Source: an uncultured Roseicyclus sp.
Lineage (GTDB): Bacteria; Pseudomonadota; Alphaproteobacteria; Rhodobacterales; Rhodobacteraceae
Assembly: GCA_947491935.1 (NCBI GenBank)
Contig: CANLLF010000002.1
Location: 434,001-498,000 of the forward strand
DNA length: 64,000 bases
Direction of reading: 5' to 3'
The first letter of the stretch is position 1. Every line of letters begins with the position of its first letter. Made by a program: the position numbers and the translations under genes. The notes below the pieces were generated by a model. It did no database searches and was not told where the DNA came from. It saw only the letters and a list, made by a program, of their open reading frames with translations. Of this stretch, positions 44,041 to 54,820 are shown one piece after another.

Positions 44041-45141
44041 TCACCTACCCCTGATCCGGGGGTCCAGCGCATCCCGCAGCCCGTCGCCGATATAGTTCAC
44101 GGACAACACGGTGAGCGAGATGAAGAGGCCGGGCCAGATCACCCGCTCGGGGTTCTGCGTCAGCCAATCGGTGGCGTCGAACAGGAGCCGCCCCCAGGTC
44201 GGGAAGTCCGATGGAAAGCCAAGGCCCAGGAAGCTGAGCGCGCTTTCGGTGATGATCGCGTTGGCGATGCCGAGGGTGGCCGAGACCATGATCGACGACA
44301 TCACGTTGGGCAGCACGTGGCGCAGGATCAGCCGCCAGGGCGGCGTGCCGATGGAGCGGGCGGCCAACACGAATTCGCGTTCTTTCAGAGCCAGCACATC
44401 GCCGCGCACGACGCGCGCGGTTTGCATCCAGGATGTCAGGCCGATGACCACAACGATCAGCACGAAGATCCCGCCTTCGGGGCCAAAGGCACTGCGCAGG
44501 ACATCGCGGAACAGCATGATGATGACCAGCAGAAGCGGCAGCAGCGGCATGGCAAGGAACAGGTCCGTCAGGCGCATCAGCAGCCCGTCCACCTTGCGGA
44601 AATAACCCGCAAGGACACCCACAAGGGTACCGAAGAACAATGCCAGCAGCATGGCCGTCAGGCCCACGGCGATGGAGGTCTGGCCGCCCACCATCATACG
44701 GGACAGGGTATCGCGGCCAAGTTGATCGGCCCCCAGCGGATGGGCCCAGGACACGCGTAAGCCGTAGATCGGATTGGCGGTGCTGAAGGCCTCGGGGTTG
44801 CCGAGGCAGGCGGGCATATCACGGAACCAGTCCGCCCATCCCTGCGCGCTGAACCATCCGCCGCCGACGCCGAGGCAGGAGAAGATGTGGTTCGTATTGC
44901 GGGCGCGGATATCGATGTATTGGCTGTCGAGCGTCCAGATCAGCGGGCCGAGATAGACGAAGAGCAGGGCGAAGATGAAGAAGCCGAGCCCGAAAAGGGC
45001 GCCCTTGTGGGTCTTGAACTGATCCCAGACATCCCACCATTGATTGCGCGGCGGCCGGTAGGCCTCCAGTTCCATGACGGGGGCTGCCCCCGCGGGGGTG
45101 GCACCGGACGTGGCGAGCGGTTGTTTCGGTGCGTCAGTCAT
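44041..45141 (-). CDS. Dipeptide-type ABC transporter permease 2 (DppC/OppC family)
   Basis: 366 residues. An N-terminal Pro/Ala-rich stretch, one membrane helix, a 90-residue periplasmic insert with Cys residues, then the DppC core with the EAA region VRGDVLALKEREFVLAARSIGTPPWRLILRHVLPNV. It is the last gene of a six-gene unit on the minus strand: ATPase, ATPase, binding protein, small exported protein, permease 1, permease 2. Eight bases separate it from permease 1. Confidence 0.92.
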   Translation of the reverse strand: MTDAPKQPLATSGATPAGAAPVMELEAYRPPRNQWWDVWDQFKTHKGALFGLGFFIFALLFVYLGPLIWTLDSQYIDIRARNTNHIFSCLGVGGGWFSAQGWADWFRDMPACLGNPEAFSTANPIYGLRVSWAHPLGADQLGRDTLSRMMVGGQTSIAVGLTAMLLALFFGTLVGVLAGYFRKVDGLLMRLTDLFLAMPLLPLLLVIIMLFRDVLRSAFGPEGGIFVLIVVVIGLTSWMQTARVVRGDVLALKEREFVLAARSIGTPPWRLILRHVLPNVMSSIMVSATLGIANAIITESALSFLGLGFPSDFPTWGRLLFDATDWLTQNPERVIWPGLFISLTVLSVNYIGDGLRDALDPRIRGR

Positions 45142-45149
45142 TGCGGATC

Positions 45150-46268
45150 TCAGTCATAACGGATGCGGGGATCGAGAACGCCGTAGAGGATGTCGGCCAG
45201 CAGGTTGAACAGCACGATCAGCACCGCGAAGATGAAGCTGACGGTTTGCACCACCGGTACGTCGCCGGCCTGAATGGCGATGATCAGAAGCTGCCCGATG
45301 CCGTTCACCTTGAAGACCTGTTCGGTGATGATGGCCCCGCCGAAGACGGCGGGCACGTTCAGCGCGATCACGGTCACAACCGGGATCATGGAGTTGCGCA
45401 GGACGTGGACGAGGACGACGACACTCTCGCTCAGGCCCTTGGCGCGGGCGGTGCGGACGTAATCCTGATTGAGATTGTCGAGCATCGAGGCGCGCATGTA
45501 GCGGCTGATCTGGGAGGCGTTGAAGAGGCCGAGAACCATGACCGGCATGATCATCTGCCGGAACTGCTGCTTGAACGTCTCCCAATCCGTGACTTCCAGC
45601 GTGGTGTCGTAGACGGATGGGAACCAGCCTAGGTTCACGGCGAAGATCACGATGAACAGAACGCCGGTGAAGAAGGTGGGGACCGAGAAGCCGATCATCG
45701 ACACGAAGGTGCCAAGCTGGTCGAACCACGAATACTGACGGTAGGCCGAGATGATGCCAAGGGGCAGGGCGATAAGGATGCCAACGATATAGGAGGTGCC
45801 GACCACCCAGAGCGTCTGCGGCATCCGCTGCAGAATCAACTCCATCACCGGCGAGCGGGTCTGGTAGGAGATGATGCGCGGGCCGTATTCGTCGAAGATG
45901 CATGAGTTGTAATCACCATCCGGAAAGAGATCTGTCCTTTCAAGTTGGGTCAAATGCGGCGGATGTGGGCAAATCTCCCTTGCATAGAGATAATCCTCGA
46001 AACGGTAGAGCCAGCCGTCTTCAACCCAGATCAGGTGCAGCGGCTCATCCCACATCATCAGCTTGAGCCATTTGAAATACTGCACGAAGACCGGGTCGTT
46101 CACGCCCAGGCTTTCGCGGATCTGTTCGCGCACCTCTGGCGGGATGGTGAGCGGCAGGCCGGCCGTGGGATCGGACGGTGACAGCTTCACGATCAGGAAG
46201 ATGATGAAGCTGATGAAGAGCAGCGTCGGGATCGCGAGGATCAGGCGGCGGATGGTGAAGGTCAGCAT
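45150..46268 (-). CDS. Dipeptide-type ABC transporter permease 1 (DppB/OppB family)
   Basis: 372 residues starting MLTFTIRRLILAIPTLLFISF. The core is DppB-like with the EAA loop SMLDNLNQDYVRTARAKGLSESVVVLVHVLRNSMIPVV. A long hydrophilic insert follows the first helix (from about residue 70 to 135, with ICPHPPHLTQLERTDLFPDGDYNSC), longer than in typical DppB. That insert would face the periplasm and could contact the binding protein. The start is 2 bases from the stop of the small exported gene. Confidence 0.92.
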   Translation of the reverse strand: MLTFTIRRLILAIPTLLFISFIIFLIVKLSPSDPTAGLPLTIPPEVREQIRESLGVNDPVFVQYFKWLKLMMWDEPLHLIWVEDGWLYRFEDYLYAREICPHPPHLTQLERTDLFPDGDYNSCIFDEYGPRIISYQTRSPVMELILQRMPQTLWVVGTSYIVGILIALPLGIISAYRQYSWFDQLGTFVSMIGFSVPTFFTGVLFIVIFAVNLGWFPSVYDTTLEVTDWETFKQQFRQMIMPVMVLGLFNASQISRYMRASMLDNLNQDYVRTARAKGLSESVVVLVHVLRNSMIPVVTVIALNVPAVFGGAIITEQVFKVNGIGQLLIIAIQAGDVPVVQTVSFIFAVLIVLFNLLADILYGVLDPRIRYD

Positions 46269-46269
46269 C

Positions 46270-46653
46270 TCAGGCGGCCTCTTGCGGGGCGCAGGTGGCG
46301 CGGTGAACGGTTGTGCTGCCCTCAATCGTCAGCGTCGCGGCAATCTCGGAGCCGAAGAAGTTCAGGAGGAGCGCGGTGTCTTGAGGGTTTCCAAACGCCA
46401 TTTGCCCCGAAGGGCTCGTGGCAGAGGTATCTTGTCCGACGATGGGCAGCACCATGATCGTGCCGTCGAAGGGGAAGGTCACGGTCTGAGCGTCCCAGTC
46501 GAATATCAGCGGATAGTTGACCAGCGCGCCCATGTCGCTGCGGCGGGTGCCATCACTGCAGGTCTCGGTGCCGATGCAGTCCAGATCGCCAAAGGCCGCC
46601 ACGCCCGAGGGGGCGGCGGCGAGCAGGGTGGCGAGGAACGGTCTGAACAGCAT
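46270..46653 (-). CDS. Small exported protein inside the ABC operon
   Basis: 127 residues with a signal peptide (LFRPFLATLLAAAPSGVAA) and a beta-rich mature part with four Cys (GDLDCIGTETCSDG near the start, TCAPQEAA at the end). No family recognised. It lies between the binding protein and permease 1, separated from the latter by one base, so its translation is probably coupled. It might be an accessory periplasmic factor of the transporter, or an unrelated stowaway. Confidence 0.6.
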   Translation of the reverse strand: MLFRPFLATLLAAAPSGVAAFGDLDCIGTETCSDGTRRSDMGALVNYPLIFDWDAQTVTFPFDGTIMVLPIVGQDTSATSPSGQMAFGNPQDTALLLNFFGSEIAATLTIEGSTTVHRATCAPQEAA

Positions 46654-46750: not shown

Positions 46751-48469
46751 TCAGGGGATGCGGTGCCATTCGGCGATGTTCCACAGCTCGGTGTCCCAAT
46801 CGGACATCCGAACGCCGCCAAGCGTATTGGCGTGGGCGGAGACGCCGCCACGGTGAACCAGCGGAATGATGGAATACGACTGCATGATCATGTCGTTCAT
46901 CGCCATGGCCAGGCGGCCACGCTCTGCCAGATCGGCGGTCTGCGCCATCTCATCCACGAGCGCATCATACTCCTCGGCGCAGAAGCGCTGGATGTTCGCA
47001 CCCTGCCACTGGGTATCGGGGCCCGGGATGTCCGAACAGCGCCAGTTGGCCATATACGCCTGCGGATCCACACCAGCGAAGTTGTTGGTGTACATTTCCA
47101 CGTCGGCATAGAACTTCTGGAACGTGTCCGGAGAAGCCGGATCACCACCGAAGAAGACCGACGCATCGATGTTGCGAAGCTCGGACCCGATGCCGATTTC
47201 TTCCCACCACTGCTTCACCAGCGCCTGGGTGTCCTGACGGACGGCGTTGGTCGAGGTCTGGTAGAGCACGGTCATCGGCACGCCGTTATATTCGCGGATG
47301 CCGTCCCCATCGGTGTCGACGTGGCCCGCTTCATCCAGCAGCGCATTGGCGCCTGCGATGTCCTGCACGAGGCAGCCATCGTTGGCGGTCGAGGCATAGG
47401 CCTCGGGCGCGGGAAGGACGTTACAGGTGGGTTGACCGCCCGCACCGTAGCCGATTTCCACGATCAGGGCGCGGTCGATGGCCATGGACATGGCCTGTCC
47501 CACGATCGGATCCGTCAGGAACGGATGCGGCCCGCCTTCCACGGTCGAGCGCAGGTCACCCAGCGCCGGATCGGGGTTGGTCTGGTTGAGGTGCAGACGC
47601 TCAACGGACGTCCCGAACGCGGTCACGACCGTGCCGTTGCCCTGGGCTTCCATCTGGCTCAGGATCGTTGGGTCGATCTGCAGGTTCCAGGCATAGTCGA
47701 ACTCGCCGGTCTCCAGAACAGAACGGGCCGCCGCGGTCGCGTCGCCGCCACCTTTGAAGGTCACCGTCGCGAAGTGCGGCTGATCGGGGACGCGGTAGCT
47801 GTCATTCGCGGCGAATTCGATCACGTCGTTCGGACGGAATTCCGTCACCACGAAGGGGCCGGTGCCGATGGGGCCGAAGTTGGCTTCGGTGCATTCAGGC
47901 GCCCGTGCGCCCAGGCAATCGGCAAACTGTGCGGCCTGGATGATCGGGCTCTCGGCGCCGACAAGTGCGGTGTAGGGGAACGGCGTGGGCGCGTTGAAGG
48001 TGATCTCGATCGTCAGATCATCAACGGCCACGATGCTTTCGACACCATCGAAGTAGGACGCCTGCGCGCAGCCGCCTTCCGGATGAGTACAGTATTCCCA
48101 GGTGAACACGGCATCCGCCGCGGTCAGCGGCGTACCGTCAGACCACGTGATGCCCTCCTGAAGCGTCCAGATGATCTGCGTCAGATCCTCGGACACGCCG
48201 CCGTTCTCGACCGTCGGAATGTCGGCCGCGAGCCACGGCACCAGGGTGCCGGTGTCGTCGAAACGGCCGAGGCTTTCGAGGACGAGCGAGGCGGATTCAA
48301 CCTCCTTCGTGCCGCCCGAGAGGTACGGGTTCAGCGTGGATGGGGCTTGCCAATAGATGATGTTGAGGTGGCCGGATCCGCCGCGGGCCAGGTGCCCATC
48401 GGCCCAAGCGGCCAGGGGCGACATCGCCATTGCGGCGGCGGCCCCGAGAAGAATGGATGTGCGTTTCAT
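46751..48469 (-). CDS. Family 5 ABC transporter solute-binding protein (dipeptide/oligopeptide type)
   Basis: 572 residues with a Sec signal peptide (LLGAAAAMAMSPLAAWADG) and a family 5 SBP body (NIIYWQAPSTLNPYLSGGTKEVE; WTLQEGITWSDGTPLTAADAVFTWEY). The protein has cysteines in GGCAQ, CLGARAPEC and CNVLPAPE that are unusual for the family and may form disulfides. It is the third gene of the transporter operon and is followed by the stable hairpin. Confidence 0.92.
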   Translation of the reverse strand: MKRTSILLGAAAAMAMSPLAAWADGHLARGGSGHLNIIYWQAPSTLNPYLSGGTKEVESASLVLESLGRFDDTGTLVPWLAADIPTVENGGVSEDLTQIIWTLQEGITWSDGTPLTAADAVFTWEYCTHPEGGCAQASYFDGVESIVAVDDLTIEITFNAPTPFPYTALVGAESPIIQAAQFADCLGARAPECTEANFGPIGTGPFVVTEFRPNDVIEFAANDSYRVPDQPHFATVTFKGGGDATAAARSVLETGEFDYAWNLQIDPTILSQMEAQGNGTVVTAFGTSVERLHLNQTNPDPALGDLRSTVEGGPHPFLTDPIVGQAMSMAIDRALIVEIGYGAGGQPTCNVLPAPEAYASTANDGCLVQDIAGANALLDEAGHVDTDGDGIREYNGVPMTVLYQTSTNAVRQDTQALVKQWWEEIGIGSELRNIDASVFFGGDPASPDTFQKFYADVEMYTNNFAGVDPQAYMANWRCSDIPGPDTQWQGANIQRFCAEEYDALVDEMAQTADLAERGRLAMAMNDMIMQSYSIIPLVHRGGVSAHANTLGGVRMSDWDTELWNIAEWHRIP

Positions 48470-48556: not shown

Positions 48557-49796
48557 CTAACTATGCAGGTGGCAGGCGACGAAGCGGCCCGGGCGCACCT
48601 CCTTCATTTCGGGGTCCTCGGACCGGCAGATATCCATGACTGCCGGGCACCGGGTGCAGAAGTTGCATCCTTGCGGCGGGTTGGACGGGGACGGGACGTC
48701 GCCTTGCAGGATAACACGTTCCGCGGTGTCATGGGTAACGGGATCGGGCTCCGGCACGGCGGACAGAAGCGCCTTGGTGTAGGGGTGCAGCGGATCGTTG
48801 AACAGCTCGTCCCGGGGGGCCAGTTCGGCCACCTTGCCCAGATACATCACGGCCACACGGTCGGCGATGTGGCGCACCATGGACAGGTCGTGGGAGATGA
48901 ACAGATAAGTCAGCCCGAACTTTTCCTGCAGATCTTCCAGAAGGTTCACCACCTGCGCCTGAATCGAGACATCCAGCGCCGCGATAGGTTCATCGCAGAC
49001 GATGAACTTCGGGTTCAGCGCAAGCGCACGCGCAATGCCGATGCGCTGACGCTGGCCGCCGGAAAACTCGTGCGGGTAACGGTTGGCGAAGTCACGGTTC
49101 AGGCCTACCGCATCCATCAGCTCGTAGATGCGGTCATTGCGTTCGGTGGTGGACAACTGCGTGTGTTCGCTCAAGGGCTCGCCGATGATGCCGGCAACCG
49201 TCATGCGCGGGTTGAGCGAGGCCTGAGGGTCCTGGAACACCATCTGCATGGTCGGACGCATGCGGCGCAGATCGTTTTCGGTGGGTGCGAAATCGGCCTC
49301 CGATATGCCCGCGGCGCGGGCCCGCGACTTGCGCAGCATGTTGCGGGTCAGGAAGAAGGTCAGAAGGCCGAGGGCGATCAGCACCGCGGCTTGCAGAAGA
49401 ACGATGGGAAACCGCGCCATCGCCTCGAACTGCACGGCTAGAACGGCGATCAGGACAACGCCAAGGATCATCACCGAATAGGTCGCGTTGCGCGCGATGC
49501 GCCGCGCGGCGGCATCGATCTTGCGCGCGTCATCATTGGCCCAAGCCAGTTCCACCCCGTCGATCTTGATCGAGGCGCTTGTGGGATCGTAGAGCCGCAG
49601 GACCGCCCGGCCGCATGTGGATTTGCCACAGCCGCTTTCGCCGACCAGCCCCAGCGTTTCACCTTCGTAGATATCGAAATTGACGCCATCGACCGCCTTC
49701 ACATCGCCCGTATGCGTGCGCAGAAGCCCGGTATGGATCGGGAAATACATCCGCAGATTGCGGACCTCGACCAGTTTGCGCGGTGCGGTGGACCCG

Positions 49797-49804
<8 letters not shown>
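48557..49804 (-). CDS. Dipeptide-type ABC transporter ATPase 2 (DppF/OppF) with a two-helix membrane insertion in the nucleotide-binding domain
   Basis: 415 residues; ATG 49804 has AGGAGG 6 bases upstream and overlaps the previous gene by 8 bases. Walker A GESGCGKS at 55-62, Q-loop QDPQASLNP at 191, signature SGGQRQR at 248-254, Walker B FIVCDEP at 267-273, H-loop His305 and the OppF C-terminal Cys-rich domain (CNFCTRC) are all present. Between Walker A and the Q-loop a typical OppF has about 20 residues after the DG turn; here residues 85-182 intervene. They include two hydrophobic stretches ([14 protein letters not shown] at about 111-124 and [20 protein letters not shown] at 133-152), flanked by Arg/Lys-rich segments. 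All catalytic motifs are intact, so it should still bind ATP. The insertion would form a membrane hairpin with both ends cytoplasmic. Confidence 0.9.
49259..49552 (-). other. In-frame insertion coding for the two transmembrane segments within the ATPase gene
   Basis: Codes for residues 85-182 of the ATPase at 48557-49804. Frame and GC content run unbroken through it, and there is no target-site duplication or inverted repeat visible at its edges, so it is not a recent mobile insertion. Confidence 0.7.
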
Positions 49805-50837
<1,033 letters not shown>

Positions 50838-51086
50838 ATAGGTTGGTCCCCCTGACCTGTTGGAATCGGTCGCCCTTGTTGTTCCGTTGAGTCTCGGGAT
50901 GGGCAACTCAATCCGTTGGAGGCTACCACGAAATCTAGGCCTCGCAAGGGCGTTTCGGGATTACGTTGCGCAGTCTGTTGGCAATTGCCCGATCTTTGGG
51001 CGCCGCATCGCCCGTTGGGGTTGACCCTCTGACGGGTGCGGCACAGGGTTGGAACATCAAGGAATTTTCCAATCGGAGAGCCATCC

Positions 51087-52241
51087 ATGTCCGAAATCCT
51101 GACCGCGCGCGCGCTTCTGGCGAAGCTGGTGTCGTTTCCGACCGTAAGCCGCGACAGCAATCTGGAATTGGTGGATTGGGTGGCGGAATACCTGGACGGT
51201 CATGGCATCGCGACAGCGCGGGATTATGACGACACCGGCAAGAAGGCATCGCTCTATGCCCATGTCGGCCCTGAAGAGGCAGGCGGCGTGGTCCTGTCGG
51301 GCCATACGGATGTTGTCCCCGTCGACGGGCAGGCCTGGGAGACCGATCCGTTCTGGGTAACAGAGAAAGACGGCAAACTCTTCGGGCGCGGCACCTGTGA
51401 CATGAAGGGGTTCGATGCGCTGGCGATCTGGGCCGCGGTGGAGGCCAAGCGGCGCGGTGTGACACGGCCCCTGCAACTGGCGTTGAGCCGGGATGAGGAG
51501 ATCGGCTGCGCCGGGGCCCCGCCGATGATCGAGCGGATGAAGGGGCAGTTGCCGCAGGCATCGCTTGCCATCATCGGTGAGCCGACGAGTATGGGCATCA
51601 TCAACGGCCATAAAGGTGGCACCGGGTTCGACCTGCATTTCAAGGGCTTTGAAATTCATTCATCCCTTCAGGACCGCGGTGTGTCCGCGATCATGGAGGC
51701 CGCCCGCCTCATCCAGTGGTGCAATGAACAAAACGAACAATCGGCGGCCGAGGCGGACCCGGACTCGCCGTTCGATCCGCCGTTCTCCACCCTCCATGTC
51801 GGCATGATCGAAGGTGGGACGGCCCATAACATCACCGCTAAGGATTGCATGTTCGTCTTGTCGCTCCGCTGCCTGCCCACCGAAGATGTCGGAGAATGGC
51901 GCAAGAAGGTGCTGGCCGAGATCGCCCGGATCGAAGCGGGTATGAAGGCGATCCGCCCCGAGGCCGAAATTCTCGTCGATCCTCGGTGGGACGTGCCGGG
52001 GCTCCGGGAAGAAGTCGACGGAGAGGCCGAGGCGATGGTGCGGCGTTTGACGGGCCTGAATTCAGCCGGAGTGGTCAGCTTTGGAACCGAAGCGGGGCAG
52101 TTTCAGTCCGCCGGATATTCGGCCATCGTCTGCGGGCCGGGTAACATCGCCCAGGCCCATCAACCCAACGAGTTCATCGAAATCGCGCAGTTGGAGCAGG
52201 GCGAGGCCTTCATGGAGAAACTCCTGTCCGAACTCGCATGA
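51087..52241 (+). CDS. argE: Acetylornithine deacetylase / M20 deacylase
   Basis: 384 residues. M20 zinc motifs: LSGHTDVVPVDGQAWETDPF, FGRGTCDMKGF and SRDEEIGCAGAP, with IGEPTSM later. GGAGAG lies 6 bases before ATG 51087. It may hydrolyse N2-acetylornithine or more generally N-acyl amino acids. It heads a plus-strand unit with the FAD oxidase gene (4-base ATGA overlap) and the M20 amidohydrolase, divergent from the dipeptide-type importer; a catabolic role is therefore as likely as arginine biosynthesis. Confidence 0.85.
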   Translation: MSEILTARALLAKLVSFPTVSRDSNLELVDWVAEYLDGHGIATARDYDDTGKKASLYAHVGPEEAGGVVLSGHTDVVPVDGQAWETDPFWVTEKDGKLFGRGTCDMKGFDALAIWAAVEAKRRGVTRPLQLALSRDEEIGCAGAPPMIERMKGQLPQASLAIIGEPTSMGIINGHKGGTGFDLHFKGFEIHSSLQDRGVSAIMEAARLIQWCNEQNEQSAAEADPDSPFDPPFSTLHVGMIEGGTAHNITAKDCMFVLSLRCLPTEDVGEWRKKVLAEIARIEAGMKAIRPEAEILVDPRWDVPGLREEVDGEAEAMVRRLTGLNSAGVVSFGTEAGQFQSAGYSAIVCGPGNIAQAHQPNEFIEIAQLEQGEAFMEKLLSELA

Positions 52242-53590
52242 CCTTCGGCATATCCGCGTTCCGCCCGGACGGGGCGCCCCTACCCAACGCGCCGCTGCCC
52301 GATGCGGTTGATGTGGCCATCATCGGCGGTGGCGTCATCGGCATCGCCACCGCGCTGTTTGCCGCGCGGGCCGGATTGTCGGTTGTCGTGCTGGAGAAGG
52401 GCCGCGTGGCCGGTGAGCAGAGCTCGCGCAACTGGGGCTGGATCCGGGTGCAGGGCCGGGACCGCTCCGAAATCCCGATCGCGCTGGAGGCGCAGGACTT
52501 GTGGAAGGCGCTCGATACCGACACCCATGGCCGGTTGGGACTCAGGCAGATCGGCGTCACGTACCTCGCGCGGACCGATTCCGACATGGAGGGGTATCAG
52601 CGCTGGCTCGACATCGCGGCCCCTTTCAACGTGTCATCGCATCTGCTGGACCGGGCCGCGATGCGGGAGCTGATGGGCGAGCCGAACGCGCCCTGGGTGG
52701 GGGCGCTGCATACGCCGACAGATATGAAGGCGGAGCCCTGGATCGCGGTGCCGGAACTGGCCCGGCTGGCGGAGTCGGACGGCGCCCGGATTATTGAGGG
52801 CTGCGCGGTCCGCACGCTTGACCGCGTGGCGGGCCGCGTGACTGGCGTGGTGACGGAGCTGGGGCGGATCCGGGCCGAGCAGGTGGTTCTGGCCGGTGGC
52901 GCGTGGTCCTCGCTGTTCCTGCGGCGCCACGGTGTCGATATCCCGCAATTGTCGGTGCGCAGCACGGTTCTTGCAACGGGGCCGTTGCCGCAGGTTCTGG
53001 CCACCGGCGCGGTGGATGATCGCATGGCGATGCGGCCCCGCGAAGATGGTGGATATACGCTTGCGCCGTCCGCCTATGGGGAGCTGTTTCTCGGCCCCGA
53101 TGCGCTGCGCCATGTGCGGCGATATCTGCCGCTTGCGATGACGGGGGAGTTCGACGTGCACCTGCGCCGCCCCGCGCCGCGCGGCTACCCCGATGCGATC
53201 TCCACTCCGCGCCGGTGGAGTGCCGGAGAACAGAGCCCGTTCGAGCGGATGCGGGTGCTGAACCCGGCCCCGAATGCCGAAAAGGTGAGCGAGCTGACCC
53301 GCCGGTTTGCACAGCTCTACCCGCAGGTGGGTGCGGTTCCGGTGCAGACGGCCTGGGCCGGGATGATCGATGTTCTGCCCGACGTGGTGCCAGTTGTGGA
53401 CCATGTGGCGGCCCTGCCGGGCCTGATCGTCGCGACCGGGATGTGTGGGCATGGGTTTGGCATTGGCCCGGCCTTCGGGCGCATCCTGTGCGACATGGTG
53501 CGGGGGCAATCCACCGGCCACGATCTGAGCCGGTTCACCATGGCGCGGTTTACGGACGGATCCCGCTTGCGCCCCGGACCCAACCTATAA
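52238..53590 (+). CDS. FAD-dependent amino-acid oxidase/dehydrogenase (DadA/DAO family)
   Basis: 450 residues. DAO-type FAD fold: VDVAIIGGGVIGIATALFAARAGLSVVVLEKG near the N-terminus, then EQSSRNWGWIRVQGRD, and a C-terminal ATGMCGHGFGIGPAFG. Enzymes of this family oxidise D-amino acids, glycine, sarcosine or related secondary amines to imines. Overlap with the argE-like stop (ATGA) means translational coupling. The WGWIRVQGRD motif marks a subgroup common in marine bacteria whose substrate I cannot give. Confidence 0.85.
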   Translation: MTFGISAFRPDGAPLPNAPLPDAVDVAIIGGGVIGIATALFAARAGLSVVVLEKGRVAGEQSSRNWGWIRVQGRDRSEIPIALEAQDLWKALDTDTHGRLGLRQIGVTYLARTDSDMEGYQRWLDIAAPFNVSSHLLDRAAMRELMGEPNAPWVGALHTPTDMKAEPWIAVPELARLAESDGARIIEGCAVRTLDRVAGRVTGVVTELGRIRAEQVVLAGGAWSSLFLRRHGVDIPQLSVRSTVLATGPLPQVLATGAVDDRMAMRPREDGGYTLAPSAYGELFLGPDALRHVRRYLPLAMTGEFDVHLRRPAPRGYPDAISTPRRWSAGEQSPFERMRVLNPAPNAEKVSELTRRFAQLYPQVGAVPVQTAWAGMIDVLPDVVPVVDHVAALPGLIVATGMCGHGFGIGPAFGRILCDMVRGQSTGHDLSRFTMARFTDGSRLRPGPNL

Positions 53591-53656
53591 CCGCTTGAAG
53601 GTGTCGGTGCGCAGTGGCACCTTCGCGCGCGACACGCCAAATCGGGGGAAAGAACC

Positions 53657-54820
53657 ATGCCAGTCAAAAATCGCTTTGCCGAACTGTTGCCGGAAATCAC
53701 GGAATGGCGGCGGGATATTCACGAAAACCCCGAGATCCTGTTTGAAACGCACCGCACCTCGGCCCTGGTGGCCGAGAAGCTCAAGGCGTTCGGTTGCGAC
53801 GATATCGTGACAGGCATCGGCCGCACCGGGGTGGTCGGCATCATCAAGGGCAAGACCGACACATCAGGCAAGACCATCGGCCTGCGGGCCGATATGGACG
53901 CGCTGCCGATCTTCGAGGATACGGGGCTCGACTATGCCTCCAAGACACCCGGCGCGATGCATGCCTGCGGCCATGACGGGCACACGGCGATGCTTCTGGG
54001 GGCCGCGAAATACCTCGCCGAGACACGCAATTTCGACGGCACCGTCGCGGTCATTTTCCAGCCGGCGGAAGAAGGCGGCGGCGGCGGCAAGCAAATGGTC
54101 GATGACGGCATGATGGAGCAATTCGGGATCGACGAGGTCTATGGGATGCATAATTGGCCGGGCCGCCCCGTGGGCAGTTTCGCCATCCGCTCGGGCGCGT
54201 TCTTCGCCGCCACGGACACGTTCGAGGTGACGTTCAAGGGCCTCGGCGGCCACGCGGCCAAACCGCAGGAAACCGTCGATACGACCGTCATGGCGGCCCA
54301 TGCCGTGACCGCGCTGCAGACGATCGCGTCGCGCAATGCCGATCCGGTCAGCCAGATCGTCGTGTCCGTCACGTCGTTCGAGACGGAGTCGAAAGCCTTC
54401 AACGTCATCCCCGAAACGGTCACGATGCGCGGCACCGTGCGGACCATGGCCGAGGAAAACCGCGATCTCGCCGCCAAACGGGTGCCCGAGATCTGCGAGG
54501 GGATTGCCGCCACGTTCGGAGGACGGGCGGAGGTGAACTATATCAAGGGTTATCCCGTGATGGTGAATTCCGAGGAGCAGACGGAGTTCGCCGCCGAGGT
54601 CGCCAAGCAGGTGTCCGGCGATTGCATGGACGCGCCGCTGGTCATGGGGGGTGAGGATTTCGCCTTCATGCTGAACGCGCGGCCGGGGGCGTATATCCTG
54701 GTGGGCAACGGCGACACGGCGATGGTGCACCACCCGAAATACAACTTCAACGACGAGGCGATCCCGGCGGGATGCTCGTGGTGGGCGGAGATCGTGGAGC
54801 GGCGGATGCCGGCGGCGTAA
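53657..54820 (+). CDS. M20 family amidohydrolase (hippurate hydrolase-like)
   Basis: 387 residues. IGLRADMDALPIFEDTGLDY, MHACGHDGHTAMLLGAAKYLAE, VIFQPAEEGGGGGKQMVDDG and MGGEDFAFML are the M20D signatures (AbgA/AbgB-HipO group). It removes acyl groups from N-acyl amino acids or similar amides using two metal ions. It follows the FAD oxidase by 66 bases; a GAAGGTG/CACCTTC hairpin lies in the gap. Confidence 0.9.
   Translation: MPVKNRFAELLPEITEWRRDIHENPEILFETHRTSALVAEKLKAFGCDDIVTGIGRTGVVGIIKGKTDTSGKTIGLRADMDALPIFEDTGLDYASKTPGAMHACGHDGHTAMLLGAAKYLAETRNFDGTVAVIFQPAEEGGGGGKQMVDDGMMEQFGIDEVYGMHNWPGRPVGSFAIRSGAFFAATDTFEVTFKGLGGHAAKPQETVDTTVMAAHAVTALQTIASRNADPVSQIVVSVTSFETESKAFNVIPETVTMRGTVRTMAEENRDLAAKRVPEICEGIAATFGGRAEVNYIKGYPVMVNSEEQTEFAAEVAKQVSGDCMDAPLVMGGEDFAFMLNARPGAYILVGNGDTAMVHHPKYNFNDEAIPAGCSWWAEIVERRMPAA

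Follow-up and report, generated by a model that had tools for sequence, protein, structure and literature searches.

A predicted membrane hairpin within the catalytic domain of a DppF/OppF-type peptide importer ATPase from Roseicyclus

Introduction

ATP-binding cassette (ABC) importers are taught as modular systems, in which soluble ATPases clip onto separate permeases via coupling helices. The E. coli counterparts of the protein described here, DppF in DppBCDF (8z1v-8z1z) and OppF (8z21), have chains of 325-334 residues, which leave no room for the insert reported below. Here we analyze a 64,000-nucleotide stretch of DNA from an uncultured Roseicyclus sp. (assembly GCA_947491935.1, contig CANLLF010000002.1, positions 434,001 to 498,000), hereafter the window, in which a DppF/OppF-type ATPase of 415 residues (48557..49804) carries a predicted two-helix membrane hairpin between Walker A and the Q-loop. 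Positions are those of the window, and features lie on the (-) strand unless stated otherwise.

An insert in an intact ATPase

A preliminary description of this locus, made from the sequence alone, held that every catalytic motif of the ATPase is in order, and that about 80 extra residues (85-182) separate Walker A from the Q-loop. Both statements stand. Walker A (49616..49642), the Q-loop QMVFQDP (49226..49246), the ABC signature FSGGQ (49052..49066), Walker B FIVCDE (48989..49006), and the H-loop with His305 (48890..48892) are all intact and correctly ordered. The spacing from Walker A to the Q-loop is 124 residues, as opposed to 39 in 83 insert-less orthologues, giving an excess of 85; the variable stretch spans residues 89-178 (49271..49540), inside the originally delimited 49259-49552. 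The reading frame (49804-48557) is open, overlapping the end of dppD by 8 bases, and its product exceeds the curated cut-offs of ABC_tran (PF00005; 103.9 bits against 25) and oligo_HPY (PF08352; 70.4 against 27.1). The more specific cut-offs of the NCBIfam DppF equivalog NF043071 (337.9 bits against 660) and PRK11308 subfamily NF008453 (393.6 against 408) are missed, probably in part because the insert interrupts the match; the best NF008453 match stretch begins only at residue 175, past the insert. Judged by its domain scores and motifs, the gene is a DppF/OppF-type ATPase.

The C-terminal region points the same way. A stretch at 48572..48667 contains Cys380, Cys386, Cys393, and Cys411, matching the [4Fe-4S] ligands of E. 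coli DppF, which are reported as C293, C299, C306, and C323 (PMC12136057). The spacing is 6, 7, and 18 residues rather than 6, 7, and 17, a one-residue difference, and all four cysteines are invariant in 50 rows of the alignment. As a set they fit the Fe-S ligand pattern of the DppF/OppF type, the cluster itself being predicted.

The insert begins with a first stalk (residues 89-107; 49484..49540), which leads into predicted transmembrane (TM) helix 1 (108-130; 49415..49483). A short loop of residues 131-133 (49406..49414), predicted to be periplasmic, is followed by predicted TM helix 2 (134-155; 49340..49405) and by a second stalk and linker with conserved G166 and FAP 172-174 (156-176; 49277..49339). 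The two best 19-residue Kyte-Doolittle windows, one per helix, score 2.42 and 2.65 and are separated by 4 residues, while the highest such window in the 83 insert-less orthologues is at most 1.31. A net positive charge marks the flanks (+2; +5 over the first 15 residues). Measured against soluble and permease controls, the insert contains two hydrophobic helices of TM grade; the Hessa scale was used beside Kyte-Doolittle. In the partner DppD the corresponding region reaches only 0.93 and has no such stretch. The earlier account of two hydrophobic stretches, a short connecting loop, charged brackets, and an insert-free DppD is thus confirmed.

Structure prediction, which had been proposed as a check, also agrees. 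AlphaFold2 (AF2) models of two divergent members place two long helices at the insert (91-126 and 132-165 in the window ATPase). The first starts within the first stalk and extends approximately 17 residues, or approximately 25 Å by helix rise, ahead of the hydrophobic part, a length at which a stalk could reach the bilayer from the ATPase. These models display only long helices and no membrane, as would also be seen if the hairpin lay outside the bilayer and formed a helical arm packed against DppC, DppD, or itself. Both helices, however, match the importer's own permease helices in hydrophobicity, unlike a soluble arm, and we regard such packing as very improbable. Hydropathy with controls, divergent inserts in nine genomes, and the two AF2 models together give good support to a hairpin of two helices whose ends both lie on the ATPase side.

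Distribution and origin of the insert

The preliminary description had called for an alignment of homologues, and this confined the insert to a few relatives. In a draw of 295 genomes of the family, one per genus, an orthologue was found at E<=1e-95 in 85 genomes (86 rows), of which 85 rows were read; G042, cut by a contig end, was left out. Two rows carry the insert, namely the window and G602 (spacing 123), and in each of the other 83 the spacing is exactly 39. Among the 83 is an additional copy from G026, more distant (62%) and perhaps a paralogue. A second draw of 394 genomes from 393 genera gave 13 matches at E<=1e-134, with the insert spanned only by the window and G602; the four orthologues newly met there have a spacing of 39. 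Likewise, a profile built from nine inserts, those of the window and G602 included, matched only these two of the 394 genomes at E<=0.001. The insert is thus not general in the family (2/394 genomes sampled).

Within the genus of the window, 8 of 13 genomes carry the insert, and the remaining five lack an orthologue at E<=1e-85. Together with G602, from one other genus, this brings the insert-bearing genomes to nine. Because the inserts in these nine genomes are homologous and in frame, and come from other assemblies as well, a misassembly or frameshift is ruled out; the mis-assembly contemplated at the outset was not borne out, and an assembly or annotation artefact of any kind retains next to no probability.

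Insert-less orthologues are 62-89% identical to the window ATPase in the part after the insert, and the operon is conserved in all three whose context was read (G478, G527, and G580). Two matching loci on viral contigs both have a spacing of 39, and among plasmids 1261 records match at E<=1e-60 with none covering at least 80% of the query. A regular-expression search of the window's own genome, which reached part of its ATPases (21 distinct stretches at 38 loci), revealed no second hydrophobic insert. Four other spacings there exceed 60, with windows of at most 0.95; three are normal FQ motifs overrun by the expression, and the fourth is a PQ. A further stretch with a spacing of 48 has a best window of 1.32.

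In a 92-row orthologue tree, drawn with a midpoint root and with its bootstrap not fully settled, all insert-bearing genes belong to a single clade of 11 rows (support 100/92). This clade pairs G602 (with) and G580 (without) on one side, and G478 (without) and the eight genomes of the genus (with) on the other, a grouping that requires at least two gains or losses. A 10-row tree of the operon partners has the identical grouping. The motifs shared at the ends of the inserts argue for a single origin and hence either for one gain followed by two clean losses or for recombinational transfer. In a tree of the insert alone, G602 groups with G004 and G011 (90/95; no starred branches), and identity by segment of G602 and G478 against their neighbours gave no clear block at the insert.

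No donor was found by a Pfam scan, a DUF6232 search of 16 genomes, or a search of the window's own genome and 385 genomes of the class. The scan of four inserts at E<=10 returned only matches below family cut-offs, the best being DUF6232 (8.6e-6). This family (PF19744) was rejected as a source, the G602 insert scoring 26.6 bits (27.0 in the genome search) against a cut-off of 27.4; 1 of the 16 genomes matched, and that match was the G602 insert itself. The insert as query matched once in its own genome. In 17 others of the class it matched only at E 0.002-0.008 and 17-20 bits, which we take as hydrophobic background.

Constraint on the insert and its possible role

The insert drifts far faster than its host protein, with pairwise identities of 0.26-0.98 among the nine genomes against 0.83-1.00 for the rest, and yet the hydrophobic hairpin is retained in all nine. 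For the 13 of 36 pairs with an insert identity of at least 0.5, the ratio of nonsynonymous to synonymous substitution rates (dN/dS) ranges from 0.07 to 0.44 in the insert and from 0 to 0.09 elsewhere. Under simulated neutral drift of the window insert (64% guanine plus cytosine, transition bias 2, with a threshold of 1.8 chosen after the real values were known), two TM-grade windows survived in 300/1000 runs at 60% identity, 16/1000 at 33%, and 8/1000 at 28%; with stops rejected, 4/500 retained them at 28%. The inserts of G602, G004, and G011, at 27-29% identity to that of the window, all retain both windows, although G004 and G011 are sisters, so that with G602 they amount to fewer than three independent cases.

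Conservation is concentrated outside the membrane parts. Invariant positions number 4/19 in the first stalk, 1/23 in TM1, 0/25 in the loop and TM2, and 4/23 in the second stalk, and mean pairwise identity is 0.37 in TM1 and 0.27 in the loop plus TM2. W88, directly ahead of the insert, is conserved, as are A93, R94, I96, A100, G166, and F172-P174 within it. Such a pattern is that expected of an anchor for which hydrophobicity outweighs exact letters. Because the TM letters drift while length and hydrophobicity persist, what is required is probably an anchor in the membrane and not a particular contact, and the insert is apparently maintained by selection.

The main rival is a harmless passenger, a membrane hairpin that landed in a permissive loop, inserts without consequence, and is filtered only for not disturbing the ATPase. 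Its rapid evolution relative to the remainder of the protein, the placement of 8/9 invariant insert residues outside the TM parts, and the existence of insert-less sister lineages would all suit a passenger. Retention of the hairpin in nine of nine genomes, set against 8/1000 under neutral drift to 28% identity, speaks against it, as do W88 and the conserved residues at the insert ends; a passenger obliged to stay membrane-compatible would be filtered likewise, which weakens the drift argument. On balance we consider a passenger unlikely, while giving it appreciable weight.

The position of the insert offers a further clue. When residues are counted backwards from the glutamine of the Q-loop, D178 is the last of the insert, and R180 and R183 align with R464 and R467 of P-glycoprotein (P-gp), while L71-Y72, ahead of the insert, align with P-gp L443-Y444. 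For P-gp, the sequence from L443 to Q475 is presumed in this alignment. P-gp is an exporter of another type than a peptide importer, and the geometry is a proposed one, drawn from residue counting. In a simulation study of P-gp variants, coupling helix 4 is reported to contact R467, and R464 in one deletion variant only (PMC7300024); L443-Y444 is a tested coupling-helix contact (PMC4505440). Because the insert ends two residues before the counterparts of R464 and R467, the hairpin should exit, and by this analogy probably does exit, on the permease-facing side of the ATPase. Placement by the coupling-helix contact site would fit a self-anchored ATPase.

The same two-residue distance, together with the conserved stalk ends, could be cited for a regulatory or recruiting element, in which the hairpin, beyond anchoring the ATPase, gates it by touching a further membrane protein or by sensing the bilayer. 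The helices that would bear a specific contact are, however, poorly conserved, and the length changes in DppB and DppC are not common to the genus and G602. We hold such a role to be improbable, more so than a passenger.

We favour an integral-membrane brace or anchor, through which the hairpin tethers the ATPase beside its permease, and assign this reading a probability of roughly 0.6. Sequence and models show that the insert is there, hydrophobic, conserved at its ends, and maintained while drifting, and that the motifs are intact; from this we infer the remaining steps. The hairpin, which interrupts the catalytic domain at the loop connecting the beta subdomain to the helix ahead of the Q-loop, would enter the inner membrane and span the bilayer with both ends cytosolic. 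It would be located by DppC, because exit from the permease-facing surface adjoins the coupling-helix contact, and would, as a permanent brace or tether, hold the ATPase in its docked state or aid its assembly through the ATP cycle. Of the self-anchored ATPase first proposed, the part well supported is a hairpin that starts and finishes on the ATPase side; anchoring is predicted only, and the arrangement is not a general one, being present in 2/394 genomes and absent from G478 and G580.

Several points weigh against the anchor. Windows six and seven of the DppB permease (1.32 and 1.07) fall within the range of the soluble controls, which makes hydropathy alone an imperfect guide, and the first flank of the G602 insert has a net charge of 0. 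AF2 is blind to membranes, and its alignments gave just 9 and 8 rows across the insert. In the remaining 23 pairs dN/dS is saturated, ranging over 0.20-1.09 and undefined in one of them. Finally, the sister lineages G478 and G580 keep the operon without the insert, which is thus dispensable in them.

A more far-reaching possibility, which we put forward tentatively, is that the ABC ATPase is of a split kind, with its two halves connected via the bilayer and the hairpin serving, in addition to the coupling helix, as a second coupling element. Membrane helices belonging to the same chain might then guide the movements of the ATPase or receive them.

The surrounding operon

The gene order is dppD (49797..50837), the insert-bearing ATPase, a family 5 substrate-binding protein (46751..48469; PF00496), and two permeases, of DppB type (45150..46325; PF00528, PF19300) and DppC type (44041..45141; PF00528, PF12911). 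The ATPase is therefore accompanied by the DppD, family 5 binding protein, and two permeases characteristic of a peptide importer. For the DppB-type gene, translation more probably starts 57 bases into the frame, at 46268.

Both permeases have extra segments of their own. DppC carries approximately 45 additional residues with two cysteines in the periplasmic TM1-TM2 loop, present in the window, L025, and four other loci of the genus (L078-L081), not in G602, G478, or G580, and mostly missing from G527. DppB has a further periplasmic segment of approximately 37 residues with two cysteines; of ten loci compared, the window and L025 alone possess it. A 127-residue open reading frame with a signal-like start (46270-46653) is situated between the genes for the binding protein and DppB. 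Its relatives occur in L025 (93% identity), L079 (39%), and L080 (35%), with a partial match of 37 residues in L026; the other six of the ten context loci gave no match at E<=1e-3.

A divergent block on the (+) strand (51036-54820) adjoins the importer and is kept beside it in most of the ten context loci. It comprises what we take to be two M20-type peptidase frames flanking a flavin adenine dinucleotide-dependent oxidoreductase-like frame, which hints that amino acids in acylated or peptide-bound form are imported and cleaved. The second M20-type gene occurs in tandem in two insert-less genomes, with four copies in G478 (the last cut by the stretch end) and three in G580; the tandem copies lie at 12668-16999 in L077 and 13219-16751 in L083. 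It is single in the available stretches of insert-less G527 and seven insert-bearing loci.

Comparison with known ABC systems

A limited search of the open PMC literature, which is not proof of absence in print, yielded no precedent for a membrane hairpin inside an importer ATPase, and the insert appears to be a new feature on an otherwise known DppF/OppF-type ATPase. One possible parallel is the OppD model NF043079 (561 positions), which we presume from its MMSYN1 name to represent Mycoplasma. Residues 94-324 of the window DppD match its positions 296-525, and these profile coordinates suggest approximately 200 extra positions ahead of the Q-loop region; membrane helices are predicted only for the insert described here. 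The regulatory insertion of CFTR is soluble and lies ahead of Walker A, unlike the present insert. This insertion in NBD1 (PMC3776845) is likewise an extra segment inside an ABC ATPase domain.

The presence of insert-bearing and insert-less orthologues in equivalent operons provides a ready-made comparison. A membrane hairpin of the ATPase's own, placed mid-catalytic domain with all catalytic residues kept, suggests that the interface tolerates a covalent membrane tether, and offers a natural test of how far importer function depends on docking and undocking, or on free rotation, of the ATPase. How such a protein folds is a further question, since its ATPase halves have to come together across a membrane segment.

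In exporters, MacB, and ABCG proteins, TM and ATPase domains are fused, the TM domain lying before or after the ATPase and forming the pathway. The ATPase described here would likewise be covalently tied to membrane helices, but with a hairpin that interrupts the ATPase and a permease that remains separate. Should the halves of the ATPase indeed be joined through the bilayer, this would represent a third mode of joining motor to membrane, next to docking and end-to-end fusion.
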